A stretch of DNA of 54,469 bases from contig JAPPJI010000002.1 of the NCBI GenBank assembly GCA_028820405.1, positions 1 through 54,469 on the forward strand, in the 5' to 3' direction. This stretch comes from Candidatus Kaiserbacteria bacterium. GTDB lineage: Bacteria > Patescibacteriota > Minisyncoccia > Phycocordibacterales > JABAAK01. A program made the translations under genes and the position numbers. Below the pieces are notes generated by a model. That model was not told the origin of the DNA. It saw nothing but the letters and a program-made list of their open reading frames with translations, and made no database searches. Of the stretch, positions 16,352 through 53,824 are shown piece by piece. Each line of letters starts with the position of its first letter. Positions within the stretch are counted from its first letter, which is position 1.

Positions 16352-17524
16352 TCACCGATTACCCTTTGCCCGATTGTGTGTTTTACAGAGCATCTGACAG
16401 TTACCAATTGATGTTGGCCCACCCTTAGCCCACGCCGATACATGATCTGCTTCCATGTCAGAAAAATTCCAAATTTTTCTTTTATTAGCCTCATGTCCGA
16501 TAGCGCAGTGTGGACAATTTGATTCATCCTCCGTCTTTGCATTCTCTGTTTGTTTTTTATAAATTGATTTCTTGGTTGCATCATCAAACACACGAATATT
16601 AAGTAACCTTGTATCCGCTGATCCGCCAAGAATATACTCAAAAATACCCTTGCGACTTTCAATGCGGGGATCAGCATATAATTTTTGAACCTCCTTTGAT
16701 ACTTTATCAGGATTATAGGACTTATCATGATACTCTTCATACAGCCGACCCCACTCTAATCCACGCATCTCATCCTCTACATCACTGAATACACTTGATA
16801 CCCAATCAATCACACTGTTAAAATAATTTTTTAATTCATCAATATTTTCGTCATAGCGGTGACTACTCATGTAGTTGTCAATATTTCCTTTACTCACCCA
16901 CTCTAAGGCTTTTTCTAAGAATGCTTGCCGTCCCACTTCGCCCCTTATATACGCACTCCATTTTTTGACGTTGGCATTTTGGCTGTTACTGAACTCCTCC
17001 TTGCATCTTGTAACAAACGGTCCAGAATAAATTGCATTTAGCAACTCTTGTTCATTTAGTGGCACACCGGCGATGTTTATAGTTTTGAACCATTCCTTTA
17101 CCTCACCCTCCTCGCCTTCACACTCATAAATGGTCAAAGGTGTCTTTAAGATTTTATTCTGCTTTTCTTCTGTCATGCTGGTGAAATACTGTTCCATTCC
17201 GTTTTCGTCTTTTACGGCAAACTTATCAGTTATAAATCGACCAAGACTGGTAATTCTCTGCTGCCCATCCAGTACCTCAAATTCATTCTCAGAAATCTTG
17301 TTAAAGTAAATCAACCCTATCGGGTAACCTTTTAGGATTGAATCAATAACAGCAATTTCTTTTTTACCATCATCAATGAAAGCGTAAATATAGTTACGTT
17401 GATATTCCGGTTGAATCGTTAGTTTGCCATCAAGACCAAATAGCCCTTTTTCTTCAAGCTCGTTGTAAACAAACCCTTCGCAAACATCTTCAATAGTGAT
17501 ATTAGTTTTCAATATTGTTTCCAT
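16352..17524 (-). CDS. DUF262-HNH endonuclease-like protein (GmrSD-like/restriction partner)
   Basis: [15 protein letters not shown]...[14 protein letters not shown]...[12 protein letters not shown] (DUF262); C-terminal CPHC...[11 protein letters not shown]...[15 protein letters not shown] (HNH). Confidence 0.88.
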
Positions 17525-17525
17525 G

Positions 17526-18671
17526 TTATTTTTTCTTGTGTCTGATAAAAATTCTTTTGTACGCCATCTTTGCAATGCCATCTTCGTAGTAACCGGCTGT
17601 CGGATTGCCTTCCTTGTATGACCCCGTGCCGCCAGATTTATAATAATCATTAACAAATCTTTTTGTTAAACCTGGTGTTCTTTTGAATTTATCATCAACA
17701 AGACCATTATCACTTGTTCCTAAAATTTCAAACTGTTCAGGATTATATTTATCAAGAAAGGAAACTGGCACTCCCATCACACCCTTGTAATCACTAGGGA
17801 TATTTTTTACTGGGCATACTTCTATCGCATTGTAATTATCATATTCTATAAAAGGCTTTTGGGTTGCAAACTTTATAACATCAGCCTCAGTCATAAGTGG
17901 TAACGGCTGATGACGGCGTCCATGGTCAAGATTAGTAAACCATCCAGTGTTCCCCATTTTAGTATATCTCTTACCGTCTTCACCAACAAACACGTTTTCT
18001 TGTTCATAAGAATCAGGTACTTGATAGATTTTTTGACCGCTATCTGTACCAAGCCACATTTTATTTTCTTTAATTAGCGGAAATACTTCTTTATAGGTAA
18101 TTGCGTTCATGTTGCCAATGATCAAAAACTTCTTGCCGTGCTCAACAAGTTGTTTTATATATTCACTAAATAAACTAAATGGCGGGTTGGTGACTATCAC
18201 GTCCGACTGTTCTAATAATTCAATGCACTCATTGCTTCTAAAGTCACCGTCACCCTTAAGGAGTTCAGAGGTATTAGCATCATTCTTTAACAGCCACCCT
18301 ACATCTACCAAATTAACCGCACCGTCCTTATTTACATCTTTGACCTCACTTATTTTAAGTTTGAACGGTTTTCTATTTTCCGGCTTTAATCCTTCAATTT
18401 GTTTCAACGGTAATTGTTCCCCAGCAATAGGAGAACTCACGTAACAAGTGGTGATAATTTTCTTTAGTCCGAGCCTGTTGAAGTTTAAGGCGAAATACTT
18501 AAAGAAGTTACTCTCATATGGATCATCGCAGTTACAGTACACGATCTTGTTACGAAATACATCAGGGTTGTACTCCAGATATGCTTCAACCTCTTTCTGA
18601 ATATCACCATATTGGGTATAAAACTCATCATTTTTTACCCGTTTTGCGTTTATAAGGGTCTCGTTTGCCAT
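17526..18671 (-). CDS. EcoRI-type adenine-specific DNA methyltransferase
   Basis: [70 protein letters not shown]. Confidence 0.88.
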
Positions 18672-24740: not shown

Positions 24741-27017
24741 CTACTGGTTTTCCGTACCACCATCTTTTTGAGCAGAGTTGTTGTTAGATGACTCATCAGT
24801 ACCCTGACTATCTTCTTCAGGTTCTTCAGATTCTTCCGCCGGTTTCTCTGCCGTATTGTCCGAGCCTCCTGTGTCACCAGACGGTGCTGAAGAGTCGTTC
24901 TGTTCCTGTTCTTTTCCTGCACTCTCATTGGCTGATTCAGATTTCTTGGATTCCTCCTCGGATTTCTCTGTTGCACTGCCTGACTCTTCCGTGTCGCCAG
25001 AAGGTGTTGGGGGGCTGTCTTGACCCTCCTTCTCTTGTTCTGGCTTTGCACCTTCTTCACTGACCGGCTTTGACTTCTCCTTATCAGCACCCTGCCCGCC
25101 CCCTGCAGATTCTTCCGCTGTATTGCTTGAGGTATCTGTACTTTCACCACCTTTTTGTTGATTAGACCCCTTTCCTTTCTCTGACTCAGGCTGTTCTCTG
25201 TCGGTGTTTTGATTGCCTGTTCCGTCAGCACCTTCTCCCTCAACAAAAGATGTTTCATTATTGATATCCTTAAACTCCGCAGTGAAGGCACTTGCGTTGG
25301 CTTCTTTCATAGCGTTATAGATTGTTTCCGCTTCCTTCTCTTGCTGCTCAATCACACGCTTAACAGCCTCGGGGTTATCAAGATTTTTAGCCCTGTTGAG
25401 AGATCCTCTCACACTCTTCAGTCCTCCCTGCCAACCCCCCTTACCGTATTGAGGAGGAAGATTCGCCCTGTTCAGAGTGCCTCCCGTGTTTTTATAGTAC
25501 TCCGCCATCTGCTCTACCGCATGAATTTTTGAAAGCAGGACACTGACAGAATCTTTCGTTTGCTTGAGATCTTCTTTCCTCCGGTCTTCAAATACCTCCT
25601 GAACCGGTCTCCCTTCATATATCGCTTTGGAAAAATCCCGAGTGTCCTTGATAACCTGTGCGGATCCTCTTGCGGTTCTCGCAGATGTATCGGCAACTGT
25701 TTTTGCAACTTCTGTCGTCCTGCTCCCCAGGTCCCCAACCTTGTTCAAAACCTTAAACCCTGCAGTTTTCAGTGTCCCTGAACCGGGAGACGGAGCAGCG
25801 GAGCTCAGCCTGCTCAAACCGGACTCCAGCCGAGACCCCAACGTGCCCGATCCGGACCGGAGAGACGGCAAAAGGGACTTCGTTACCCCCTTTGCAACAT
25901 TCAGGGTTTTCTTTGTCACCGGTGCACCGGCTTTGTACACATACGTGTTTTTCGCCATTGCATACACTTTGAAAAAACCATAGATGAGAAGACTGTTCGC
26001 AATGGTGGTCCCGACCAACATCTTTACGACACCCGGGTCAGTGCTCCCCGACGATCCGGAAGCGGAAGCAACGCTATTAATAAGTGCTTCATTCACACCG
26101 CTGCTCTCCATCACTGATCGGAATACCGCTTCATAGATATAAATGATGATTGCAAGACCAAAGATGATGATAATGGGAACAATGGTTATGTGAGAAAACC
26201 GATTCAGCCACTCACTATACCCACGGGCAATAAAGGAACCGGGCGAGCTTGAACCCATCCCTGACTTTTTTACAAAAAACCCGAGAAACGCTATCGGAGA
26301 AGTGAGGATGAGGACAATGGCAAAAAGAAACCGTTCGATGAGGAGGAGGGAGAAAGCGAGAAAACCGACAGAAAGGAAGGTATATACGATCATCTTTGAG
26401 AAAGAGTAGAGGAGGGGAAAAGCATTTTGTGTTGAAAGCGAAGAGAGACCGATGGCCAGGTTGATCTCCTCCTCAAAAACATCCATTTTTGCAAACGTAT
26501 TCGCGTCAAACACCTGATCACCAAAGATGATGAGGATGACATGCGAAAGGTCAACCAGAAAGAAGGCGATAAATCCGCTGAAGTTCACAAAAACAGCGGC
26601 GCCGACGAGTGCGAGAAGGGTCTTGGTCCGATTAATACCGAAAGCACTTTCAGAAAGTATCGTCAGGATTGATGAGAAGATGAAGAGGATGACAATGACG
26701 ATGTTCACCAGATCACGAAAAATTCCCCAGATTCCGCTCAAACCGGAAAACGGTCCGTCACTTGACCAATACGAACCGAAATCAATGATGGTAAAGTTAA
26801 AGGTTGAGAGGAAAATCGTCCGGCAAATATCAAATAGCGGATTCAGGATGGAGTCGGCAAACCAGCCAAACAGCTTGCCGGCAACCTCAAACATTGTTTC
26901 AGTGAAATCATCCGAAGCACTTTGTGCCCAAACGTCAGTTGTTGCGGTAAAAAGAACAATACCGAGCAGTGCTATTGAGAGGAGGAGAGGCCAATGCTTC
27001 CCGATAAAACGCATCAT
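24741..27017 (-). CDS. TrbL/VirB6-like polytopic membrane protein with long acidic Ser/Glu/Pro-rich tail
   Basis: about six to eight TM segments in the N-terminal half, signal peptide, low-complexity C-terminus. Confidence 0.7.
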   Translation of the reverse strand: MMRFIGKHWPLLLSIALLGIVLFTATTDVWAQSASDDFTETMFEVAGKLFGWFADSILNPLFDICRTIFLSTFNFTIIDFGSYWSSDGPFSGLSGIWGIFRDLVNIVIVILFIFSSILTILSESAFGINRTKTLLALVGAAVFVNFSGFIAFFLVDLSHVILIIFGDQVFDANTFAKMDVFEEEINLAIGLSSLSTQNAFPLLYSFSKMIVYTFLSVGFLAFSLLLIERFLFAIVLILTSPIAFLGFFVKKSGMGSSSPGSFIARGYSEWLNRFSHITIVPIIIIFGLAIIIYIYEAVFRSVMESSGVNEALINSVASASGSSGSTDPGVVKMLVGTTIANSLLIYGFFKVYAMAKNTYVYKAGAPVTKKTLNVAKGVTKSLLPSLRSGSGTLGSRLESGLSRLSSAAPSPGSGTLKTAGFKVLNKVGDLGSRTTEVAKTVADTSARTARGSAQVIKDTRDFSKAIYEGRPVQEVFEDRRKEDLKQTKDSVSVLLSKIHAVEQMAEYYKNTGGTLNRANLPPQYGKGGWQGGLKSVRGSLNRAKNLDNPEAVKRVIEQQEKEAETIYNAMKEANASAFTAEFKDINNETSFVEGEGADGTGNQNTDREQPESEKGKGSNQQKGGESTDTSSNTAEESAGGGQGADKEKSKPVSEEGAKPEQEKEGQDSPPTPSGDTEESGSATEKSEEESKKSESANESAGKEQEQNDSSAPSGDTGGSDNTAEKPAEESEEPEEDSQGTDESSNNNSAQKDGGTENQ

Positions 27018-27058: not shown

Positions 27059-30000
27059 CTACGGACGGTACTCATGATTACATTCTTCGGTAACTTTTGC
27101 GACGGTTCTTTGCTTTTGCATCTCTTCTACACAGTTACGCAATATTGCGGCGTTGCGGTAGTACTGGAACTCCTCCTTGTCTTTCCGATACTTCTCATAC
27201 TTTGCCGCAGCAGCTTCATGATCGCCGACCAATTCGTCAAACTTGTTACCGAGGTAGAAGCTGACACTTGTTCCCTCCGTACCTACCGCAGGAGGCGGAA
27301 CAATGGTGAAGATGTCTTCTATCCGCTTCTGCTCAGAACTGCTGTCAGTGGCAGGAAGTTCGACTATCTTTGGATTTTCCGTACTTGAGTAGAGAAAACG
27401 GACAAGATTTTTAATGTCCAGTGCAGTCTGCACCAGAACACGATCAATGTATTCTCCGAATTCTTTAACGGTACATCCGATTGAGGTGTACCGGAGCACG
27501 GACCCTTGTGTGGAGAACGTATATCTCTCACCTCCGGCAGCCGGCACATCACAGCCGTGACCCGGTACGAGATATCTGGTGTAGCCCCTGTTTCCTTCGC
27601 TCACAAGAACCGGGGCCTCTCCTGTTTCAAGGAGCCGGTACGCCGTTGCAGAGACGCTTTCGTCAAATCCGTCCCGACATATTTCCTGATCATCTTCAAA
27701 CACCTTACTACAGTCACCTGCCAGCTTGTTATCATAGTCACCAAGAATTGACAGGTCGTGATTCTCCGCAACGTGGAGATGGAACTTTACCGTATCTTCA
27801 TACATACGACGGTACGCATTGATTCGGGACCGTAAACTACGCAGATACCTTCTCTCAGCTGACCCTGCAAAAGATCCTTCCCGCACATCGTCATACCAAA
27901 CATACTCTGTTTGATCACCTCGTTGACGCAGTCTCCATCCGTTGATAATGCTGTTTCGTATAAACTGATCGAGGCCTGATGCACTTCCGATCGACCGATC
28001 GTTAGCCACATCAACACCTTTCACCGTTGAGATAAATGCATGCAGACTTCCTGAACCGCCGGTCCCCAATTTAATTTTCAGATCACCTATTTGCCTCGGA
28101 TCCCTCGGATTAAACCAATCAAAAGCAGATCTGTTCGTCTGAATCTGCGTGTTGTCAGCAATTATGTTGTCGTCCAGGTATTGAAGGATCAGGTACGCAT
28201 CACGAACTACTATCTGTGCTTTTGCTAATTGATAGTACGGGCTTAAGAAGGTGTCTTTGGACGTGCTCACCTGTTCCGGAGTGAACAGTTCATCGTTTAT
28301 ACCGGCAAAGTTTCTCAGGCTCGCCACATAACCTGCATCTCTGAGTTCTGATCGTGTTGCGTGATGTATGCCGACCATTGAATTGTACTCACCGAGCCCG
28401 TTCTGCACCTTTTTAACAAGACCGACGATGGTGTTTTTGAAGATGGCGGAAAAGAGCTCTCCGAATTCATCAATCTGGTTCACGCCGTCAAGATTTCTGT
28501 TGTCATTTCTTCGTATTTGCTCATTGATGTCATCAGCATTCGCCAACTTTTCAATACACAACTCTTTGTCCTCAACGTTATTCTCTTCCTCACACTCCTT
28601 CCATATGTTAACCGTGTTGTCATCATTCCCTTTGCCGACTTTTTCATCCAACTCCTCTTTAGCATCCCTTACCTCATCCTCGAGCATACCCTCAACACTC
28701 GCCACGGTCGGTGCATTAGCGCCTTTCACTGCTTCAGAAACAGCTTCTTCTTCAGCCTTTTCGGTTGAACGATCCCTGCGGCGCTCGCCGGGAAATCCGA
28801 GGTGACTACTGAGGTCAAAGTATGCGGTTCTTCCCCGACGATCAAACCCGTAGTCATCACGGGCATCACGACTGATTCTGAAAACGGGAGGGGTGATTCT
28901 GAGCACCGTCTGCACATACATACCGTCAATCGGTATGGGAGACCGCCTGCAAAGAGAGGTAAAATGATCGGGATCGGAACCTCCTCCGACCTCCACGGCA
29001 GAGAATCCGACCTCTTTTTCAAGAAGAACTGATGCGTGTGAACCCTGCTCGGGGTTGAAACGATGACTCCACTCCCTGCTGTCTGTAGACAGCACTTCAC
29101 TGCCTGAGAGTGCGTCACCGACCGCAACAGTAGCACACCACCGACTGCTATCAAACGCGGTGAGACAGTCCTCTATACGCTGACAACCCCAACCGGACAC
29201 CCCTCGCAACTTGTCAGCAATAGACGGATCCGCAAGGGTCCTGCCGCCCACATGATGTTTCAAATAGAGGCGAAGGACGACAGCAAACCCCGTACTGCTG
29301 TTTTCTAAGTTATAGAGCGGCCGCTCTGCAACGACGGAATGGATTGTCGTATCCGCAGCCCATTGAGGCAATTGATTCTCTATTTCGTCAAGAGAATATG
29401 AGAGACGATTTCCTTGTGACGGATTCCATGCAAGATTTGGCTCATCTCGCACCGCCTTTCTTGAAATAAAGACAGACCAGTCACCTGCGGCAAGATCATC
29501 AACGGTCACTACACTCGCACTATCAGAACTCACCGGAGACACGGCCTCAACAAATGCTATTGCCTCCCGTCGTGCTTTCTCCAAGTCAATAGTATACGTA
29601 GAACCCGGATCCGTTATGTACAAATCCCGTTCTCTCACCAAACCAACAGAGAGAATCTCTGTTTTCTTCAAAACATCGGTCGGGTCTTCAATAAACCCTT
29701 CCACTTTGTTATAGATACCGGTTACATTCTTTAACGCCTGAGACCCGGTACATCGAGGCGGTCTCCTTTTAATATTGCGGTACTTGAGGTAGAGGTGTTG
29801 TGATATATCTATGTTAAAACCATTGACATCACACAGGAATCCGAGGTTGTTTCTGTCGATAATTCTTCCCGTTGCGTCATCAAGCAAATCTTTCAAATAG
29901 CGCTCCTTGTTGGTAAAGAATGGATTTTTCCCGTTAAAACCACTGAGAGCATATTCGGAATAATCCGCCGCCATCTTTGCCGCTATATCAAACGCAATTT

Positions 30001-33000
30001 CCTTGGCAATCGGATCAAGCATGCACTCTTTCACCGCCTGTACCGGGTCAATCCGCAGTCCTGTGTCAATCTTGGTTCCCAAAACCGAACCACCAATGGC
30101 AATAAGAGAGTTGACACCACAGGCAACGAAACTTCCTAAAATAGTGGCAAAGACGCCGGTGACCGCCTGCTCAAAGAAACTGTCAACATCAATATCACCG
30201 CCTCCTTCAGAGAGGTATGGTGCAGCTGCGCCATATTCTCCGGTATACACAGAACTATACTCCCCGGTCTCCGGCAACGTGGTCACCTCCAGACATCCGT
30301 GTCCCGTACTGTCATCGGCATCAGAGACGGTACCGTCACTAAATAGAAGAGAGAAGACAACCTTGAAGGAATACGTCTGGTTAGACGTCAGTCCGCCAAC
30401 AACCATGTCATAGAATGGTGCATTAATCGTGAAGTACTGATTATCATCCCGTACATCTCCCGGATTAAGGAACCTTCTCTCTCGCTGTTTCTGCCCTGCA
30501 ACACACCCCCTCCCAAGGTACGGCACGACGGTAAACTGCTGCACTTGGTAGTCACCCGACCGGCTGCTGTAACAGATTGAATCTTCAATAACAGAAAGAG
30601 TGACCGCGTTTTGAGATACACCGCCTTCCCGAACAATAAATGATACCGGATCAATACAGTCCAGAGGCTCAACCGGCGGCGTATCCGTGCCAAAATCAAT
30701 GACCGGCGGTGTGGCAGGGTCAAATACCTGACCAGAAGCGGTAAGAGTTATCGCAAAACAGTCCGAGAGATCGCCAAAACCGATATCGTTTCTTGCACGA
30801 ACACGAAATGAGTAAGTCCCGTTTAGATCACCGGGCAGTACCCGCTGCGTACTTGTTGTCGAGTAGATTCTTTGATTGGTAAAGGTAACACCACAACTGC
30901 CGCCACGGAATTGAAAAACTTCGTACCCTCTAACAGGAGACCCGTTACTGTCAGGAGCATCCCATACTAAGCTGATCCGTGCTCCCTCCGACTCATCTCG
31001 GACATTTTCCGGTGCACCAGGACGACCCGACCGTGTCGGGTCACGGGGAGAAGGTTCGTCGCCTCCGTCATCTTCACCCTCATCCCTATCATCATCTTCA
31101 GGAACCTCGGGAATCGTTGTATCGTCACCCGGTCCGCGGAAAAAGAGTGATGTTTCGTCCGGTTCCCGGTCACCGTCAAAATCAATCTCTGTTTCACCAT
31201 CCCCTCCGTCATCTGAAATATCATCCGGATCAATACCATCACCACTATCTGTTGCGATGAGGAGGTTGATGTACTCCCTCCGGGTACCGGGATCACTGAG
31301 AATAGTATAGGACTCAAATGCGTTTCGGAAGGATCGGAACAGAAAGAAGAAATTCGGCAACGGCGGGAAAGTAAACTCTGGAACAGTGAAGTCAAACTCC
31401 GGAGTGACAAATCTGAAATTTGAGTTCGTGAGATCAAGCTCAGGAGGAACAAAACTGAACTCTGGATCAACAGGGTCAAAACCCGGAGGGATGAAATTGA
31501 ATTCGGGGTTGGTGGGGTCAAAACCGGGATTGGTAAATCTGAAGTTCGGGTTGTTGAAATTAAATGTCGGAGAGGTGAACGCGAACAAAAAGCGTGGCAG
31601 CGGCGGGATAAGAGGTCCGAACGTGTCTCCGGAACTGTCATCGGTATCATCATCAGATACCCTCGTTGTGGTGGAAAGACATGGTGAATACTCACTGGCA
31701 CCCGCAGCATTTCTTGCCCGAATCCTGAATGAATAATCTGTTTCCGGCCGGGCACTCACACGAACAGCGGTGTCCTCAGGTTCAATAAACCGCTCATAGG
31801 GCTGACCCTGACACTCATTCCCGTTATGCTGTCGCAGTTCATACCGAATGATCGGAGTGGCACTCTCCGGTCTGTTCCATCTCAAGGCAACAAAGAAAGA
31901 ACTTGTCAGTTGAACTTGAAGATTTGGTGTACCGGGAGATCCCGGATCTGACGGTGGTGTGTCAGAATCGTTTTCTGTTTTTACCGAAATACAGTCTGAA
32001 AGCTCACTCACTCCAAAGTAGTTTCCGGAACGAATCTGAAACGAATACTCAGTATCCATAGTACCGGAGATGATTTTTTCTGTTTCATCGGCATCAACAC
32101 GATACGTCGCGACACGGTCGGTACAATCGATTCCTCGATATTGAATGATATCGTAGTATTCAATACCAAATCCGTTGTCCTCTACCGGATCCCACACAAC
32201 TTTGATAAAACCCATCCCGAATCCGTCAAACCGAAAATTTTCCGGCGTGCCCGGAGCCCGTGGATCTTGTCCGGGAAGCGGTCCATCCCCCGACAGACAC
32301 TCTGAAAAGACACTTGCCCCGTCATTGGTAACGACACGAATCCTGAACGAGTACGATACATCTTCTTCAATGCCGGTTACTCGCGTTGCTGTTTCATCTC
32401 CCGCAACTCTTAATTCCCTCTCCGGTGTCCCGGCACAGGAGTCGCCGCGAAATACCTGTATGTGGTAGTAGGAGATGTTGTCCGGATTGATACCGGTTGG
32501 TATGTCCCATGCAAGGTCAATGTATCCCGATCCTCTTGATACAACCCTGAAGTTTTGTGGCGTTGACGGTGGTGTGTCGGTTTTTTCAAAATGCGGAAAA
32601 GTAATTGACGGAATATTATTGTCACGCTGCACAAAAACAGCGAAAGGAGAGACACGAACGCCGTCTCTGAAAAAGAGGGTGCTGCCGTCATATTCTAATG
32701 ACAAACGGTCATCAGTGATTGGCTGTGCCACTGTCAGGACAATGACTCCGTCGGAGAGTTGTGCATGGGTCACCTGCACTGAAGGGTCTGAAAACTGAAA
32801 GTCGGCAGGACTGACCTTTCCGCTGAATCCGCCTCTTGTCATGAGGTAGACAGATGTTCCGTCTGCATATGCAACGATCCCCGGCAATCCAAGCGTGTCG
32901 AACGCACTGGAAAAACGGCGGCTGGCGAGAGAAAAGGCATTTTCTATTTCTTCTTGTGTTGCGTCTCTCTCAAGTCCGAGGACATCAAAGTACCCTTCAT

Positions 33001-33424
33001 CACCTGACAAAAGATTGTCATAGATGCGGCGCTGATCCTGGTCAAGAAGGAGGAAGCAGGCCTGTCGTATGAGAGCAAGTAGTTCAGGAACGTCTCGATA
33101 GAGGTTGGATTGACGATCACAGGCTTCCCGAATTTCACCTTCTGACGCACCCCGATCAACACCCAGCACCTCATATAGTGTCAGGACACCCTGATCATCA
33201 TCGGAAATTCCCTGAAGAAGCAGGTCAGATGACTCCTCTCCCACCCTATCACTACCGCCAATAATGTCGGCAGAGTCTGTTTTTTCTCCCACTTCCAGCG
33301 GTCCCGGAACGTCATCACCGGAGAACAAGAACCATGATCCGACACCGACCACCGTTGTTGCCGCGATACCGCTTATGATAACAGCTGGTGCAATACCCCG
33401 AGCAACATTTTTAAGCGGAAACAT
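27059..33424 (-). CDS. giant (2121 aa) membrane-anchored extracytoplasmic protein: degenerate J-domain-like segments, multiple FN3 domains, PxFxF heptapeptide repeat
   Basis: N-terminal TM; YEVLGVDRGASEGEIREA...; FN3 units (TPQNFRVVSRGSGYIDLAWD..., GTPENFRFDGFGMGFIKVVWD...); repeat tract at 31361-31570. Confidence 0.85.
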   Translation of the reverse strand: MFPLKNVARGIAPAVIISGIAATTVVGVGSWFLFSGDDVPGPLEVGEKTDSADIIGGSDRVGEESSDLLLQGISDDDQGVLTLYEVLGVDRGASEGEIREACDRQSNLYRDVPELLALIRQACFLLLDQDQRRIYDNLLSGDEGYFDVLGLERDATQEEIENAFSLASRRFSSAFDTLGLPGIVAYADGTSVYLMTRGGFSGKVSPADFQFSDPSVQVTHAQLSDGVIVLTVAQPITDDRLSLEYDGSTLFFRDGVRVSPFAVFVQRDNNIPSITFPHFEKTDTPPSTPQNFRVVSRGSGYIDLAWDIPTGINPDNISYYHIQVFRGDSCAGTPERELRVAGDETATRVTGIEEDVSYSFRIRVVTNDGASVFSECLSGDGPLPGQDPRAPGTPENFRFDGFGMGFIKVVWDPVEDNGFGIEYYDIIQYRGIDCTDRVATYRVDADETEKIISGTMDTEYSFQIRSGNYFGVSELSDCISVKTENDSDTPPSDPGSPGTPNLQVQLTSSFFVALRWNRPESATPIIRYELRQHNGNECQGQPYERFIEPEDTAVRVSARPETDYSFRIRARNAAGASEYSPCLSTTTRVSDDDTDDSSGDTFGPLIPPLPRFLFAFTSPTFNFNNPNFRFTNPGFDPTNPEFNFIPPGFDPVDPEFSFVPPELDLTNSNFRFVTPEFDFTVPEFTFPPLPNFFFLFRSFRNAFESYTILSDPGTRREYINLLIATDSGDGIDPDDISDDGGDGETEIDFDGDREPDETSLFFRGPGDDTTIPEVPEDDDRDEGEDDGGDEPSPRDPTRSGRPGAPENVRDESEGARISLVWDAPDSNGSPVRGYEVFQFRGGSCGVTFTNQRIYSTTSTQRVLPGDLNGTYSFRVRARNDIGFGDLSDCFAITLTASGQVFDPATPPVIDFGTDTPPVEPLDCIDPVSFIVREGGVSQNAVTLSVIEDSICYSSRSGDYQVQQFTVVPYLGRGCVAGQKQRERRFLNPGDVRDDNQYFTINAPFYDMVVGGLTSNQTYSFKVVFSLLFSDGTVSDADDSTGHGCLEVTTLPETGEYSSVYTGEYGAAAPYLSEGGGDIDVDSFFEQAVTGVFATILGSFVACGVNSLIAIGGSVLGTKIDTGLRIDPVQAVKECMLDPIAKEIAFDIAAKMAADYSEYALSGFNGKNPFFTNKERYLKDLLDDATGRIIDRNNLGFLCDVNGFNIDISQHLYLKYRNIKRRPPRCTGSQALKNVTGIYNKVEGFIEDPTDVLKKTEILSVGLVRERDLYITDPGSTYTIDLEKARREAIAFVEAVSPVSSDSASVVTVDDLAAGDWSVFISRKAVRDEPNLAWNPSQGNRLSYSLDEIENQLPQWAADTTIHSVVAERPLYNLENSSTGFAVVLRLYLKHHVGGRTLADPSIADKLRGVSGWGCQRIEDCLTAFDSSRWCATVAVGDALSGSEVLSTDSREWSHRFNPEQGSHASVLLEKEVGFSAVEVGGGSDPDHFTSLCRRSPIPIDGMYVQTVLRITPPVFRISRDARDDYGFDRRGRTAYFDLSSHLGFPGERRRDRSTEKAEEEAVSEAVKGANAPTVASVEGMLEDEVRDAKEELDEKVGKGNDDNTVNIWKECEEENNVEDKELCIEKLANADDINEQIRRNDNRNLDGVNQIDEFGELFSAIFKNTIVGLVKKVQNGLGEYNSMVGIHHATRSELRDAGYVASLRNFAGINDELFTPEQVSTSKDTFLSPYYQLAKAQIVVRDAYLILQYLDDNIIADNTQIQTNRSAFDWFNPRDPRQIGDLKIKLGTGGSGSLHAFISTVKGVDVANDRSIGSASGLDQFIRNSIINGWRLRQRGDQTEYVWYDDVREGSFAGSAERRYLRSLRSRINAYRRMYEDTVKFHLHVAENHDLSILGDYDNKLAGDCSKVFEDDQEICRDGFDESVSATAYRLLETGEAPVLVSEGNRGYTRYLVPGHGCDVPAAGGERYTFSTQGSVLRYTSIGCTVKEFGEYIDRVLVQTALDIKNLVRFLYSSTENPKIVELPATDSSSEQKRIEDIFTIVPPPAVGTEGTSVSFYLGNKFDELVGDHEAAAAKYEKYRKDKEEFQYYRNAAILRNCVEEMQKQRTVAKVTEECNHEYRP
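31361..31570 (-). repeat. 21-bp (heptapeptide) imperfect tandem repeat, 10 units, consensus P-x-F-x-F-x-x
   Basis: PTFNFNN PNFRFTN PGFDPTN PEFNFIP PGFDPVD PEFSFVP PELDLTN SNFRFVT PEFDFTV PEFTFPP. Confidence 0.9.
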
Positions 33425-33458: not shown

Positions 33459-34346
33459 CTACTCTTCCTGTTGCAAAAGGTAGTATGTTTCCTTCACCGC
33501 ACGCTTCAAACGATCGTTCACTTCAGCAATCTGTTCTTCGGTCGTTTCTCCTTCCGGAAACGGCACATACAATGCACCGGTGTTCATGAGAAAGAGAACA
33601 AAGAAGTAATCTTCGGAACGATTTGAAGTAATTGCAACTGAAAGTGCCTCACAGATGTAAACAAATCGCTCAAGAACGACAAAGTAGTATGAAAATATGT
33701 CAGCGGGAACAGCTCGCGGGAACAGCTCAAGTGCCCGGGTACAGTGTGCCTGTGCCTGAGAAGCCTCACGAAGCACATTTTTGTTTTGCGAAAACAGTTC
33801 AGCAATGTACTCGTTCAGCGGACGCTTAAATTTCGCTGTTTCCTGAAGTGCCTGCATAAACCTGCTTAACACATCGGTGCGTGACACCCCGTCGTCAACA
33901 CGAAGCACAACTTCGGGCAGTGATCGTTCACCGATTTCATTGAGAAAATAATCAGTCGAATCAGAGACAAACCGATTCTGTTCTTCTTTTGTGAGAGAAT
34001 CCACATCATCAATACCGAGCAACAGCCGACGGGAAATGTCTTTGGTAAACTCACCCGGTCCTTCGTAGATAAGGTCTTCTGCAAGCACGTCATCGGGAAT
34101 CATCACATCACTATGCTTCGGGAAAGAGGTCGGGTCATCAACATCAGACCCTGCGATCTCTTCCAGCCAGTCAGGAATGTCATCTCCGTCGCGGTCAAAC
34201 ATTTCTGCTGACTCTCGGTATGATTTAATTTGGACGAGGGAGACTTCCTCCACTCCTCCGGGACTGCGGAGTGCAGCGTACAGTATTGCCGAAAGAGCGA
34301 CAGCAAACACAATCACGATCACCAACCCTCGGCTTGTAAACGGCAT
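33459..34346 (-). CDS. membrane-anchored protein with Ca-binding loop-like motif
   Basis: N-terminal TM; DRDGDDIPDWLEEIAGSDVDDP thrombospondin-3/EF-hand-like loop. Confidence 0.7.
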   Translation of the reverse strand: MPFTSRGLVIVIVFAVALSAILYAALRSPGGVEEVSLVQIKSYRESAEMFDRDGDDIPDWLEEIAGSDVDDPTSFPKHSDVMIPDDVLAEDLIYEGPGEFTKDISRRLLLGIDDVDSLTKEEQNRFVSDSTDYFLNEIGERSLPEVVLRVDDGVSRTDVLSRFMQALQETAKFKRPLNEYIAELFSQNKNVLREASQAQAHCTRALELFPRAVPADIFSYYFVVLERFVYICEALSVAITSNRSEDYFFVLFLMNTGALYVPFPEGETTEEQIAEVNDRLKRAVKETYYLLQQEE

Positions 34347-34348
34347 TT

Positions 34349-35137
34349 TCACAACCCTATGGTACCACGACCCTCTGTCCTGCTCATGTGCTCCGCAATC
34401 GCATACCAAACAGAAAACGGTATGTCTTCTGCACGACTTGCTGCACTGATATGGTGCTGACGAAGGAGATCAAGAACTTTTGTATCACCGGCAAACTTCT
34501 TCCCTATCTGCTTTCGCTTCTCCCGAAACGCAGTTTTGATAAGAGGGAAAAAGGCATCCCGGACATGTTGCGGCGGTGCATGAATGTCGGTGATGGTCAG
34601 AATCGCCGAAGCAACAGACGGTTGCGGAGAAAAAGCGGTCTTCGGAACTGTTTGCAGGAGTTTTGGTTTGCCGAACAGGTGAACCGAAAGCGAAAGCAGA
34701 GACGCCTTCCCATCACGCATCACAACACGTTCAGCAATCTCTTTTTGAACCATGAGTGCAACCGCCTGCGGCTGCTTCTCTGATGAGAGGAGGTGGCGAA
34801 GGAGCGAGCTGGTGAGGTAGTACGGTATGTTGGCAACGATGACATAGGGCGGTGTGAGGTGTTTCATCCACTCCTGATCGCGAACATCTCCTGCAACAAT
34901 GCGAACCTGACCGCTTGCAACTTCTTCCGCAAATCGGTTTTGTAATCCGTCAATAAGCGTTTTGTCCCGCTCAATTGCAAGCACGGAAGCTCCGGTGCGA
35001 AGCAGGTACGCCGTCAGTGCACCTTTCCCCGGACCAACCTCCACAACAAACACTTCCTTTGAAAGAGGGATTGCCTGCGAGAGAGACCGAAGTGCCGACG
35101 GTGATTTGAGAAAATGTTGTCCGAGTGGTGCACGCAT
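34349..35137 (-). CDS. rsmA: 16S rRNA (A1518/A1519) dimethyltransferase
   Basis: PLGQHFLKS, VVEVGPGKGALTAYLL, VANIPYYLTS. Confidence 0.94.
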   Translation of the reverse strand: MRAPLGQHFLKSPSALRSLSQAIPLSKEVFVVEVGPGKGALTAYLLRTGASVLAIERDKTLIDGLQNRFAEEVASGQVRIVAGDVRDQEWMKHLTPPYVIVANIPYYLTSSLLRHLLSSEKQPQAVALMVQKEIAERVVMRDGKASLLSLSVHLFGKPKLLQTVPKTAFSPQPSVASAILTITDIHAPPQHVRDAFFPLIKTAFREKRKQIGKKFAGDTKVLDLLRQHHISAASRAEDIPFSVWYAIAEHMSRTEGRGTIGL

Positions 35138-35145
35138 ACCGAATG

Positions 35146-37011
35146 TCACCACACTATATCATTCTCCGCCGTCGTAGCGTGTGAATGTTTCACGAGAAGC
35201 GGGTCAGGGATATCTGCGAGGAATGATGACGGCACCCGATTTTGGTACGAGCCGAATATACCGCGACGAGCGGTGTGAGAGAGGTAGAGGTGGTCCTTCG
35301 CTCTCGTCATTGCAACATAGAAGAGCCGCCGCTCTTCTTCAGGATCACCGGACCCGTCATCGTCACGCTGAAACGGAAACAACCCTTCCTCCATCCCTGA
35401 GACGAAGACACAGGGAAATTCAAGACCTTTCGCGGCATGCACCGTCATGAGCCGAACAGCATTTCTTTCCTGAATCCGCAAAGAGTCCTGTTCACCACTT
35501 AACGCAACCTCGGCGAGAAGTTCTGCGACCCCCTCTGTTCCGGAAAGATGAGAGAATCTATCGGCAAAAACGAGGAGTTCGCGAACTTCCCGCTGACGAT
35601 CTTCGTAATCATCAAAGGTTTTCTTCAAATATGATTCATAGTCAAGCACCTCATTGATCAGGAAATGCAGTGTTTCTGCAACAGTGTTCTTTTGTAAATG
35701 GTCAGATGTCCGTTCAATATCATTCCGCAGCCTTGCAACGAGCGATGCGGATCGTGAGGTAAGTTGATCTTCTTCACCATGAAACAGCCGCTCGAGTGTC
35801 TTGGCACCGATCCCCCGACGCGGTGCCCCTGCGGCACGGGTAAGTGCATCCTGTGAAGACGGGTTTTGTGTTAAGGTGAGGTACGCAAGCAGATCTTTGA
35901 CTTCACGACGATCAAAAAATCGGACACCGAGCACGGTGTACGGAACCTTCGCATGCAACATACCTGTCTCAAGTGCTCGCGACTGAAAATTAGCACGATA
36001 GAGAACGGCAATATCCTGATACAGCACACCGCTCCCGTGCAAACCGGTAATTGCCTGTGCAACCTGTGCCGCCTCATCCTCCTCACTGCCGCTGACTTCA
36101 AGAAGGGTAATCCGGTCTCCGCCGCCCCGGTGAGAGACAAGCTTCTTCTCCTGACGAAAATTATTTTTTGCAATAACCGCATTTGCCGCAGAGAGAATGG
36201 TGTCAGTTGACCGATAGTTTCTGGTGAGAAAAACTGTCTTCACAGGGCGATACTGCTCAGCAAATGAGAGCATGGTGTGAATACTCGCACCACGCCATGA
36301 ATAGATTGTCTGATCCGTGTCACCAACCGCAATGATGTAGGCATTATCCCCCTTCACCATTTTAACGAGGGTGTTTTGTATGCGATCCGTGTCCTGAAAC
36401 TCGTCAACGAGGATGTATGCATACCGCGACGATACCATCTCCCGAACAGCCGGCTGCTCTCGCAGAAGACGGATGGTATGAAGGATAAGGTCATCAAAAT
36501 CAACCGCTTTCTCCCGGTGAAGTGCTTCGGCATATTGAGGGAGGAGCTGCTGCACATATTCATGAATCGGGTCTGATTCAGAAGGCTCAATAAGCCCTGT
36601 CTTTATCTTCCCTATCATATTCTGCATGACACTCGGTGTGTACTCCCGCACCGCCCGGTCACGCATAAGCTGCCTTACGATCGTTCGGCAGGCACTCCGG
36701 TCAAGAACAACAAACGTTGGTGACAGACCGGCTTCTGTCGGAAATTCTTTTAGAAGTGAGAAACAAAAAGCATGGAACGTACCGATAAAAGGGGGCTTGG
36801 TGTCGCACCGGGATCGAATACGGTCACGCATTTCATCTGCCGCCTTGTTGGTAAAGGTAAGAGCAAGAATATTCTGAGCAGGAACACCACTTTTGAGTAA
36901 GTGGGCTATTTTTTCGATAAGCACATGAGTCTTCCCCGTTCCTGCACCTGCAACGATGAGCATTGATGTGTTCAATGCCTGCACTGCTTCTGCCTGCTCA
37001 TCGTTTAACAT
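35146..37011 (-). CDS. UvrD/PcrA/Rep-like superfamily 1 helicase
   Basis: LNDEQAEAV, VAGAGTGKT, LVDEFQDTD, GDTDQTIYSWRGA, TVHAAKGLEF, VAMTRAK. Confidence 0.95.
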   Translation of the reverse strand: MLNDEQAEAVQALNTSMLIVAGAGTGKTHVLIEKIAHLLKSGVPAQNILALTFTNKAADEMRDRIRSRCDTKPPFIGTFHAFCFSLLKEFPTEAGLSPTFVVLDRSACRTIVRQLMRDRAVREYTPSVMQNMIGKIKTGLIEPSESDPIHEYVQQLLPQYAEALHREKAVDFDDLILHTIRLLREQPAVREMVSSRYAYILVDEFQDTDRIQNTLVKMVKGDNAYIIAVGDTDQTIYSWRGASIHTMLSFAEQYRPVKTVFLTRNYRSTDTILSAANAVIAKNNFRQEKKLVSHRGGGDRITLLEVSGSEEDEAAQVAQAITGLHGSGVLYQDIAVLYRANFQSRALETGMLHAKVPYTVLGVRFFDRREVKDLLAYLTLTQNPSSQDALTRAAGAPRRGIGAKTLERLFHGEEDQLTSRSASLVARLRNDIERTSDHLQKNTVAETLHFLINEVLDYESYLKKTFDDYEDRQREVRELLVFADRFSHLSGTEGVAELLAEVALSGEQDSLRIQERNAVRLMTVHAAKGLEFPCVFVSGMEEGLFPFQRDDDGSGDPEEERRLFYVAMTRAKDHLYLSHTARRGIFGSYQNRVPSSFLADIPDPLLVKHSHATTAENDIVW

Positions 37012-52468: not shown

Positions 52469-53824
52469 TTATTCGTGTTCTGGGTTCATGTATCCAAGTT
52501 CTTTTAGTCGTGTATGTAAATACGCCATGTCCCTACCACCTTTTATACTATTACATGTCCCACAAAGTAACTGTATGTTTTCGGGCACATCTGGACCACC
52601 CCCTGATTTCGGAGTGATGTGATCGTCATTCATTATGTGAAGTGGTATATTCCAAAAACAGCCGTTACATAATGCATCTTGCTCAACATATAACCTCTGC
52701 CTCATCTCTTGCCTTGTCTCTTTTGCCCTCTTTCCAACATCTGTTCTTACCGGCGGATCAGTTCTTGAAATTGGATCATATGTATCAAACAAATTGGTTT
52801 CTTTTCTCATTCTATTTCGTACAAGAAAACGAGCCACGGGAGAAATGTCTATACCAACCCACCTCCTATTCAATTGCTCAGCGGCCACGAGGGCAGTGGC
52901 ACAGCCACAAAGTGGGTCAAGGACTATATCTCCCTCACCACTACTCGCTTTTATTATTCTGTGCATTAATTCCAGGGGTTTTTGAGTAGGGTATCCTGTT
53001 CGCTCTCCCGCTGCTGTTTTAGTGCCAAAGCCAAGTATGTCAGTCCAAATATTACCAACAGTTGCCTCAGCCTCATCAAGGTAGTACTTCTTGTATTTTT
53101 TACCAGTACTTGATACATGTATCAAACCTTTCTCTTCCATTTCCGAGATAGACTTTTCCGAATAGTCACCAAGCTGCACAGCCTTGTATTTTCTACCACT
53201 CTTTTCTGTGTAACGATATGCTTTTTTTTGTTTTTCAGACAGTTCGGCTGTAATCTGGTTAAACAAATATTCTTTTCCTTTTGAATAAAACAAAATGGTG
53301 TCGTGTGTTCGTGGAAACTGTTTAGATCCCTTCTTTGCACCTTTTCCTGGGATATCCCTTTGCCACACAATCTCATTTCTGAAATTGCCATGCCCAAACA
53401 CGCAGTCTAATATTGTTTTCAAATAATGACCTGCATGGTAATCACAATGCAGGTATATACTACCAGTTTCTTTTAATACTCTATGCATTTCGAACAAACG
53501 GGCAGTCATATATATGAGATATGACTTCATATCTTTTCCGAATGAAAACTCACTTGCTTCTATGACCTCATAAATGCAACGATTGTCTTTCTCTAAAGAG
53601 TTATGCCATGTGACATCTGTATCTCTCAACTTCCACATGTCATTAAACTCCGCCTTAACAACACCATCTCCCCCAAAGTCTGTGGGCAAGCCTCTATACT
53701 TAACATCACTCTTGAAAGGAGGGTCAAGATAGATTAGATCGATGCAATTACTGTTCATCCCCCTAATTATGTGAAGGTTGTCACGTACCCAAATCGTACC
53801 TTCCTTAAAATTAAGGGGGCTCAT
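52469..53824 (-). CDS. beta-class DNA methyltransferase fused to HNH nuclease (paralog of 848-2134)
   Basis: DLIYLDPPFKSDVKYRGLPTDFGGDGVVKAEF shared; DPLCGCATALVAAE; CNGCFWNIPLHIMNDDHITPKSGGG...LLCGTCNSIKG. Confidence 0.9.
   Translation of the reverse strand: MSPLNFKEGTIWVRDNLHIIRGMNSNCIDLIYLDPPFKSDVKYRGLPTDFGGDGVVKAEFNDMWKLRDTDVTWHNSLEKDNRCIYEVIEASEFSFGKDMKSYLIYMTARLFEMHRVLKETGSIYLHCDYHAGHYLKTILDCVFGHGNFRNEIVWQRDIPGKGAKKGSKQFPRTHDTILFYSKGKEYLFNQITAELSEKQKKAYRYTEKSGRKYKAVQLGDYSEKSISEMEEKGLIHVSSTGKKYKKYYLDEAEATVGNIWTDILGFGTKTAAGERTGYPTQKPLELMHRIIKASSGEGDIVLDPLCGCATALVAAEQLNRRWVGIDISPVARFLVRNRMRKETNLFDTYDPISRTDPPVRTDVGKRAKETRQEMRQRLYVEQDALCNGCFWNIPLHIMNDDHITPKSGGGPDVPENIQLLCGTCNSIKGGRDMAYLHTRLKELGYMNPEHE

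Follow-up and report, generated by a model that had tools for sequence, protein, structure and literature searches.

The definition of a J-domain rests on its HPD tripeptide and on its joint work with Hsp70. The tripeptide has been described as essential for interaction with Hsp70, and mitochondria have J-like proteins that are believed to function independently of Hsp70 (PMC11349236). Pam16/Tim16 and the Pam18 of T. brucei, which carries HSD, are degenerate, HPD-less J-domains that are Hsp70-independent and membrane-linked (PMC11349236). A second described system of relevance here is the type IV secretion system (T4SS) of Patescibacteria, which is MPF-FATA-like, is encoded at a locus with VirB4, PrgI/VirB3 and VirB6, and has been reported as essential for one strain to grow epibiotically (PMC12102498). 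We describe a giant protein, P0001, that carries J-like units and the core of a protein family encoded at T4SS loci. Our main reading, to which we assign a probability of roughly 0.55, is that P0001 is an expanded and exported member of this family that would use HPD-less J-like folds as a scaffold.

The window, the whole stretch of 54,469 nucleotides that was analysed, belongs to one draft genome of the Patescibacteria near Ca. Kaiserbacteria. The gene is an uninterrupted open reading frame with no internal stop. Mis-assembly of the region was considered and is unlikely, as the flanks match a conserved gene order and the FN3 domains have paralogues elsewhere in the genome. Elsewhere in the window, DNA methylases with fused HNH nuclease domains lie near both ends, one at 848-2134 and another at 52469-53824, and in a low-GC stretch (16352-18671), likely a mobile restriction island, an EcoRI-type adenine methylase overlaps the gene of a GmrSD_N-HNH nuclease. 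The leader and the J-like parts of P0001 are as follows.

27059-33424, minus strand: P0001, giant, putatively exported protein of 2121 aa (reading of the open reading frame)
33320-33397, minus strand: N-terminal transmembrane segment, residues 10-35 (hydropathy peak 1.95)
33008-33184, minus strand: J-like unit 1, residues 81-139, complete helices I-IV with the HPD loop deleted (PF00226, J-domains in the PDB, AlphaFold2)
32909-32998, minus strand: J-like unit 2, helices I-II, residues 143-172 (PF00226, 18.4 bits; J profile)
31259-31336, minus strand: J-like unit 2, helices III-IV, residues 697-722 (helix III-IV profile, joins, shuffles)

The initial annotation had read residues ~81-138 as J-like without the HPD loop, and the profile comparison agrees. 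The Pfam DnaJ score of the whole protein is 33.6 bits, above the gathering cut-off of 27.8; the match in unit 1 extends over residues 83-136, that is, positions 2-63 of the 63 in the PF00226 model, with a gap at the HPD loop. Excised, unit 1 scores 26.9 bits, slightly below the cut-off, so P0001 passes PF00226 on two stretches together. Nearly all matches of unit 1 in the PDB are DnaJ J-domains (best E 0.007), as are all chains that align over its full length. AlphaFold2, with an input of one FN3 paralogue row and no DnaJ rows, predicted four helices at residues 77-87, 95-108, 113-127 and 129-139, with pLDDT values of about 50-69.

A half-unit had also been proposed to follow unit 1, and PF00226 matches it too, with residues 143-172 alone reaching 18.4 bits. 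Its counterpart was suspected about 550 residues downstream, in the segment encoded at 31258-31337. A helix III-IV profile based on the sequences of 39 canonical DnaJ proteins from the class finds its top match in P0001 in this segment, at about residues 697-722 (12.5 bits as a tile), which leaves a gap of 524 residues between the halves. The background maxima were 7.7 bits in 39,650 windows of other open reading frames and 5.0 bits on 8,340 shuffled tiles, and none of 2000 shuffles of residues 173-2121 reached the observed score. When residues 143-172 were joined to 697-722, the PF00226 score rose from 18.4 to 28.2-30.0 bits, compared to 17.7-20.4 bits for control joins to eight other P0001 windows and a reversed copy. 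It should be mentioned that joins scored with our own J profile were unusable as a control, with HMMER domain scores of shuffled joins up to 39.7; they were replaced by the half-profile shuffles and the Pfam control joins. The break lies where the HPD loop would be, and the halves stand in the correct J-domain order. Since the joined score exceeds those of the controls, no shuffle reached the observed score and the break falls at the HPD loop, the sequence comparisons support unit 2 as a single J-like domain split by a 524-residue insertion. Between a split fold and separate relics, the two options of the initial annotation, the join scores thus favour a split by a beta, FN3 and repeat insertion. 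Structure prediction, proposed there for the joined segments, was made on the unaltered sequence and gave the four helices of unit 1 and two helices in residues 143-172; the chain beyond residue 589 was disordered, including the distant half (pLDDT about 30), so that the packing of the two halves stays a prediction.

The inserted arm and the parts that follow it are listed below.

32600-32884, minus strand: beta-strand domain after helix II, residues ~181-275, Ig-like by eye (AlphaFold2 strands, low confidence)
31655-32572, minus strand: three FN3 domains, residues 285-590, one Cys pair each (Pfam, similarity)
31337-31615, minus strand: Pro/Phe-rich degenerate repeat tract, residues 604-696 (sequence)
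31040-31246, minus strand: acidic linker, residues 727-795 (sequence)
30740-31033, minus strand: fourth FN3 domain, residues 798-895 (similarity to the other FN3 domains of P0001)

Pfam recognizes FN3 in P0001 with an E value of 7.6e-28, and AlphaFold2 predicts these domains with fair to good confidence. The Cys pair in each of the three FN3 domains has a spacing of 44-46 residues. These domains are colinear, at 35% identity, with those of an FN3 protein on contig C11 of the same genome; the FN3 giants of that contig share the three FN3 domains and their Cys pairs with P0001 but have neither J-like units nor the core. No Pfam match was found for the beta-strand domain, and no DNA tandem repeat for the Pro/Phe-rich tract. 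A fold search with the model of the J and FN3 region lists only proteins bearing FN3-type beta domains.

The HPD tripeptide occurs nowhere in the 2121 residues of P0001, and neither unit contains a histidine. Because the tripeptide is absent, we describe the units by their sequence as J-like and P0001 not as a J-domain protein. The net charge of helix II is -2 and -1 in the two units, compared to 0 to +4 in the 39 canonical J-domains, so neither has the basic helix II of a J-domain. The fold-defining positions (LG, I..A, A..L.D..RR.Y) are kept in both units. An ordinary, HPD-bearing DnaJ is encoded beside DnaK in the same genome; a further DnaJ match in this genome, on contig C23, was rejected as a chance match to what looks by eye like a RecG-like helicase. 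Given that HPD is missing, that helix II has a reversed charge and that the units likely lie outside the cytoplasm, as described below, the earlier view that the units would not serve Hsp70 is well supported, and they were probably re-used as structural building blocks. Compared to DnaJ/Hsp40, P0001 is alike in sequence and helix order, with unit 1 aligned over model positions 2-63, and differs in that the HPD loop is deleted or replaced by the 524-residue insertion, helix II is acidic, the DnaJ C-terminal domains are absent and the protein would lie outside the cytoplasm. Pam16/Tim16 and the T. brucei Pam18 may be analogues in being degenerate, Hsp70-independent and membrane-linked, and differ in that they are mitochondrial and retain the loop.

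The N-terminal transmembrane segment claimed in the initial annotation is seen by hydropathy at about residues 10-35. It is preceded by positive and followed by acidic residues, and by the charge rule it would be an N-in/C-out anchor. This leader and the Cys pair in each FN3 domain agree in placing the J-like units outside the cytoplasm, so the description of P0001 as exported stands as a prediction from its leader, its cysteines and its relatives. A second hydrophobic stretch occurs further along the chain.

30095-30151, minus strand: hydrophobic stretch, residues 1092-1110 (hydropathy)

With this stretch, the core may lie on either side of the membrane, and the side of the J-like units is not affected. 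The stretch aligns with the signal peptide of relatives, and the former leader may survive here inside the protein.

The remaining features connect P0001 to the T4SS locus.

29705-30058, minus strand: N-terminal half of the core of the T4SS-locus family, residues 1123-1240 (leave-one-out profile)
28382-28621, minus strand: possible C-terminal half of the core, residues 1602-1681, displaced by ~360 aa (weak: 6.9 bits, domain E 0.12)
24741-27017, minus strand: VirB6-like polytopic membrane protein, next gene (homologues adjoin the core gene in most relatives)
33459-34409, minus strand: membrane-anchored protein of 316 aa, conserved upstream of the core gene (gene order)
34349-37011, minus strand: genes for RsmA and UvrD, a border upstream of the locus that is conserved in the taxonomic family (Pfam, gene order)

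A core profile made without P0001 scores 77.2 bits on the whole protein (E 4.8e-23) and 68.2 bits on residues 1123-1240. The weak second piece at 1602-1681 suggests that the core of P0001 is also interrupted. The first Cys pair of the core family is present (C1198, C1225), and the second conserved pair is not aligned. By a profile that included P0001, 159 of the 272 class genomes contain the family, which is uncharacterised, appears to bear signal peptides and is encoded beside VirB6 at the chromosomal T4SS locus of Patescibacteria. One VirB6-like homologue beside the core gene is PF04610 TrbL. A fold search with the core, for which the model is weak, gave nothing above noise and matched no solved fold. 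The order of small membrane protein, core and VirB6 is present at the P0001 locus, with UvrD and RsmA upstream. Two genomes of the same taxonomic family, G007 and G006, have a similar order with a VirB4-type gene after VirB6; G006 has PrgI between these two genes and G007 has one extra gene before VirB6. In P0001's own genome, PrgI and VirB4 are located on a separate contig, C26, and the nearest named relatives of VirB4 are from Ca. Kaiserbacteria and other Parcubacteria. This context was absent from the initial annotation, and it makes P0001 a much-expanded member of the VirB6-neighbour family, with which it shares core sequence, gene order and leader. It differs from the family in that its core is not N-terminal but begins at 1091, appears interrupted and has no aligned second Cys pair.

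The core is at the N-terminus in nearly all family members fetched, and most of these starts look by eye like AxA signal peptides. It begins at residue 178 in G007, near 390 in G001 and G002 and near 1091 in P0001. From these late starts, a slot between leader and core reads as a trait of this taxonomic family, with contents that differ from genus to genus. The passengers of the core family vary by lineage. Within the taxonomic family, J-like units occupy the slot only in P0001's genome, and none were found in 40 other core-family members examined. The class and phylum samples gave only isolated DnaJ-sized frames and no further J-like units of this kind. No relative of full-length P0001 was found among the GTDB contigs or in the phage collection. 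Separately, a 1023-aa protein of the same genus (G004, L267:4900-7971, plus strand) has a J-like segment with HPD around residues 354-386 (PF00226, 20.6 bits); by eye, hydrophobic stretches lie on both sides of it and a LysM-like segment follows. A core-family protein of 1795 aa at L151:1556-6943 (minus strand) has kelch repeats, and another at L056:2583-5306 (plus strand) carries, close to its C-terminus, a Hint-like segment that stays below the cut-off at 21.5 bits and may be a self-cleaving passenger.

The J-like segments could instead be what is left, after decay, of a DnaJ fragment that was picked up by recombination, with neither fold nor function of their own and with the half-units as linker. 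The loss of HPD, the degenerate units, the second of them in pieces, and their restriction to one genome would suit such decay, and the dnaK and dnaJ genes beside the FN3 giants on C11 would offer a route of capture. We regard this as unlikely, because both units retain the positions that define the fold and have lost the features that contact Hsp70, because AlphaFold2 gives unit 1 four helices with no DnaJ rows in the input, and because none of the three segments has the genome's own DnaJ among its top matches. As an observation in itself, contig C11 of this genome, G000 (L076, L077), has the FN3 giants directly beside grpE-dnaK-dnaJ, where FN3 and J sequences may have met.

Less probable still is a J origin of unit 1 and the half-unit alone, with the half-unit a stand-alone helical hairpin and residues 697-722 matched by chance. 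The match is indeed short and AlphaFold2 leaves the distant half unfolded, yet the shuffles, the 28-30 bits of the join against the lower controls, the correct order and the break at the HPD loop all argue against chance. That the units act as genuine co-chaperones, serving an extracellular Hsp70 or that of a partner cell, would accord with their J-domain homology and the T4SS neighbourhood. It is nevertheless highly improbable, considering that neither unit has HPD or a histidine, that the charge of helix II lies outside the canonical range and that, according to the literature, Hsp70 interaction requires HPD (PMC11349236).

We propose that P0001 is most likely a membrane-anchored surface component of the T4SS apparatus, with its J-like folds as a helical scaffold. 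The leader would export the chain and probably anchor it, and the two J-like helical units, together with FN3 domains, would form a passenger between leader and core. The units would have kept the J-domain fold, lost the Hsp70-stimulating HPD loop and become a rigid helical scaffold or modules for docking. In unit 2, the position of the HPD loop would be the insertion site of the 524-residue arm, composed of the beta domain, three FN3 domains and the Pro/Phe-rich tract, and its small helical base would hold both ends of the arm. The arm may reach outward from the cell, in contact with a partner cell or in assembly of the secretion machine at the surface. The full form of this proposal, in which the J fold has become an extracellular scaffold of a T4SS component and the place of the Hsp70 loop the insertion point of an adhesive arm of half a thousand residues, is offered tentatively.

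If true, exported J-like units used for their shape only would be a clear case of reuse of a chaperone fold, and tolerance of 524 inserted residues in the functional loop of a J fold would show what makes such reuse possible. The core family, with its lineage-specific passengers and its presence in more than half of the sampled class, is a candidate surface component of the patescibacterial T4SS, which is thought to serve epibiotic life.
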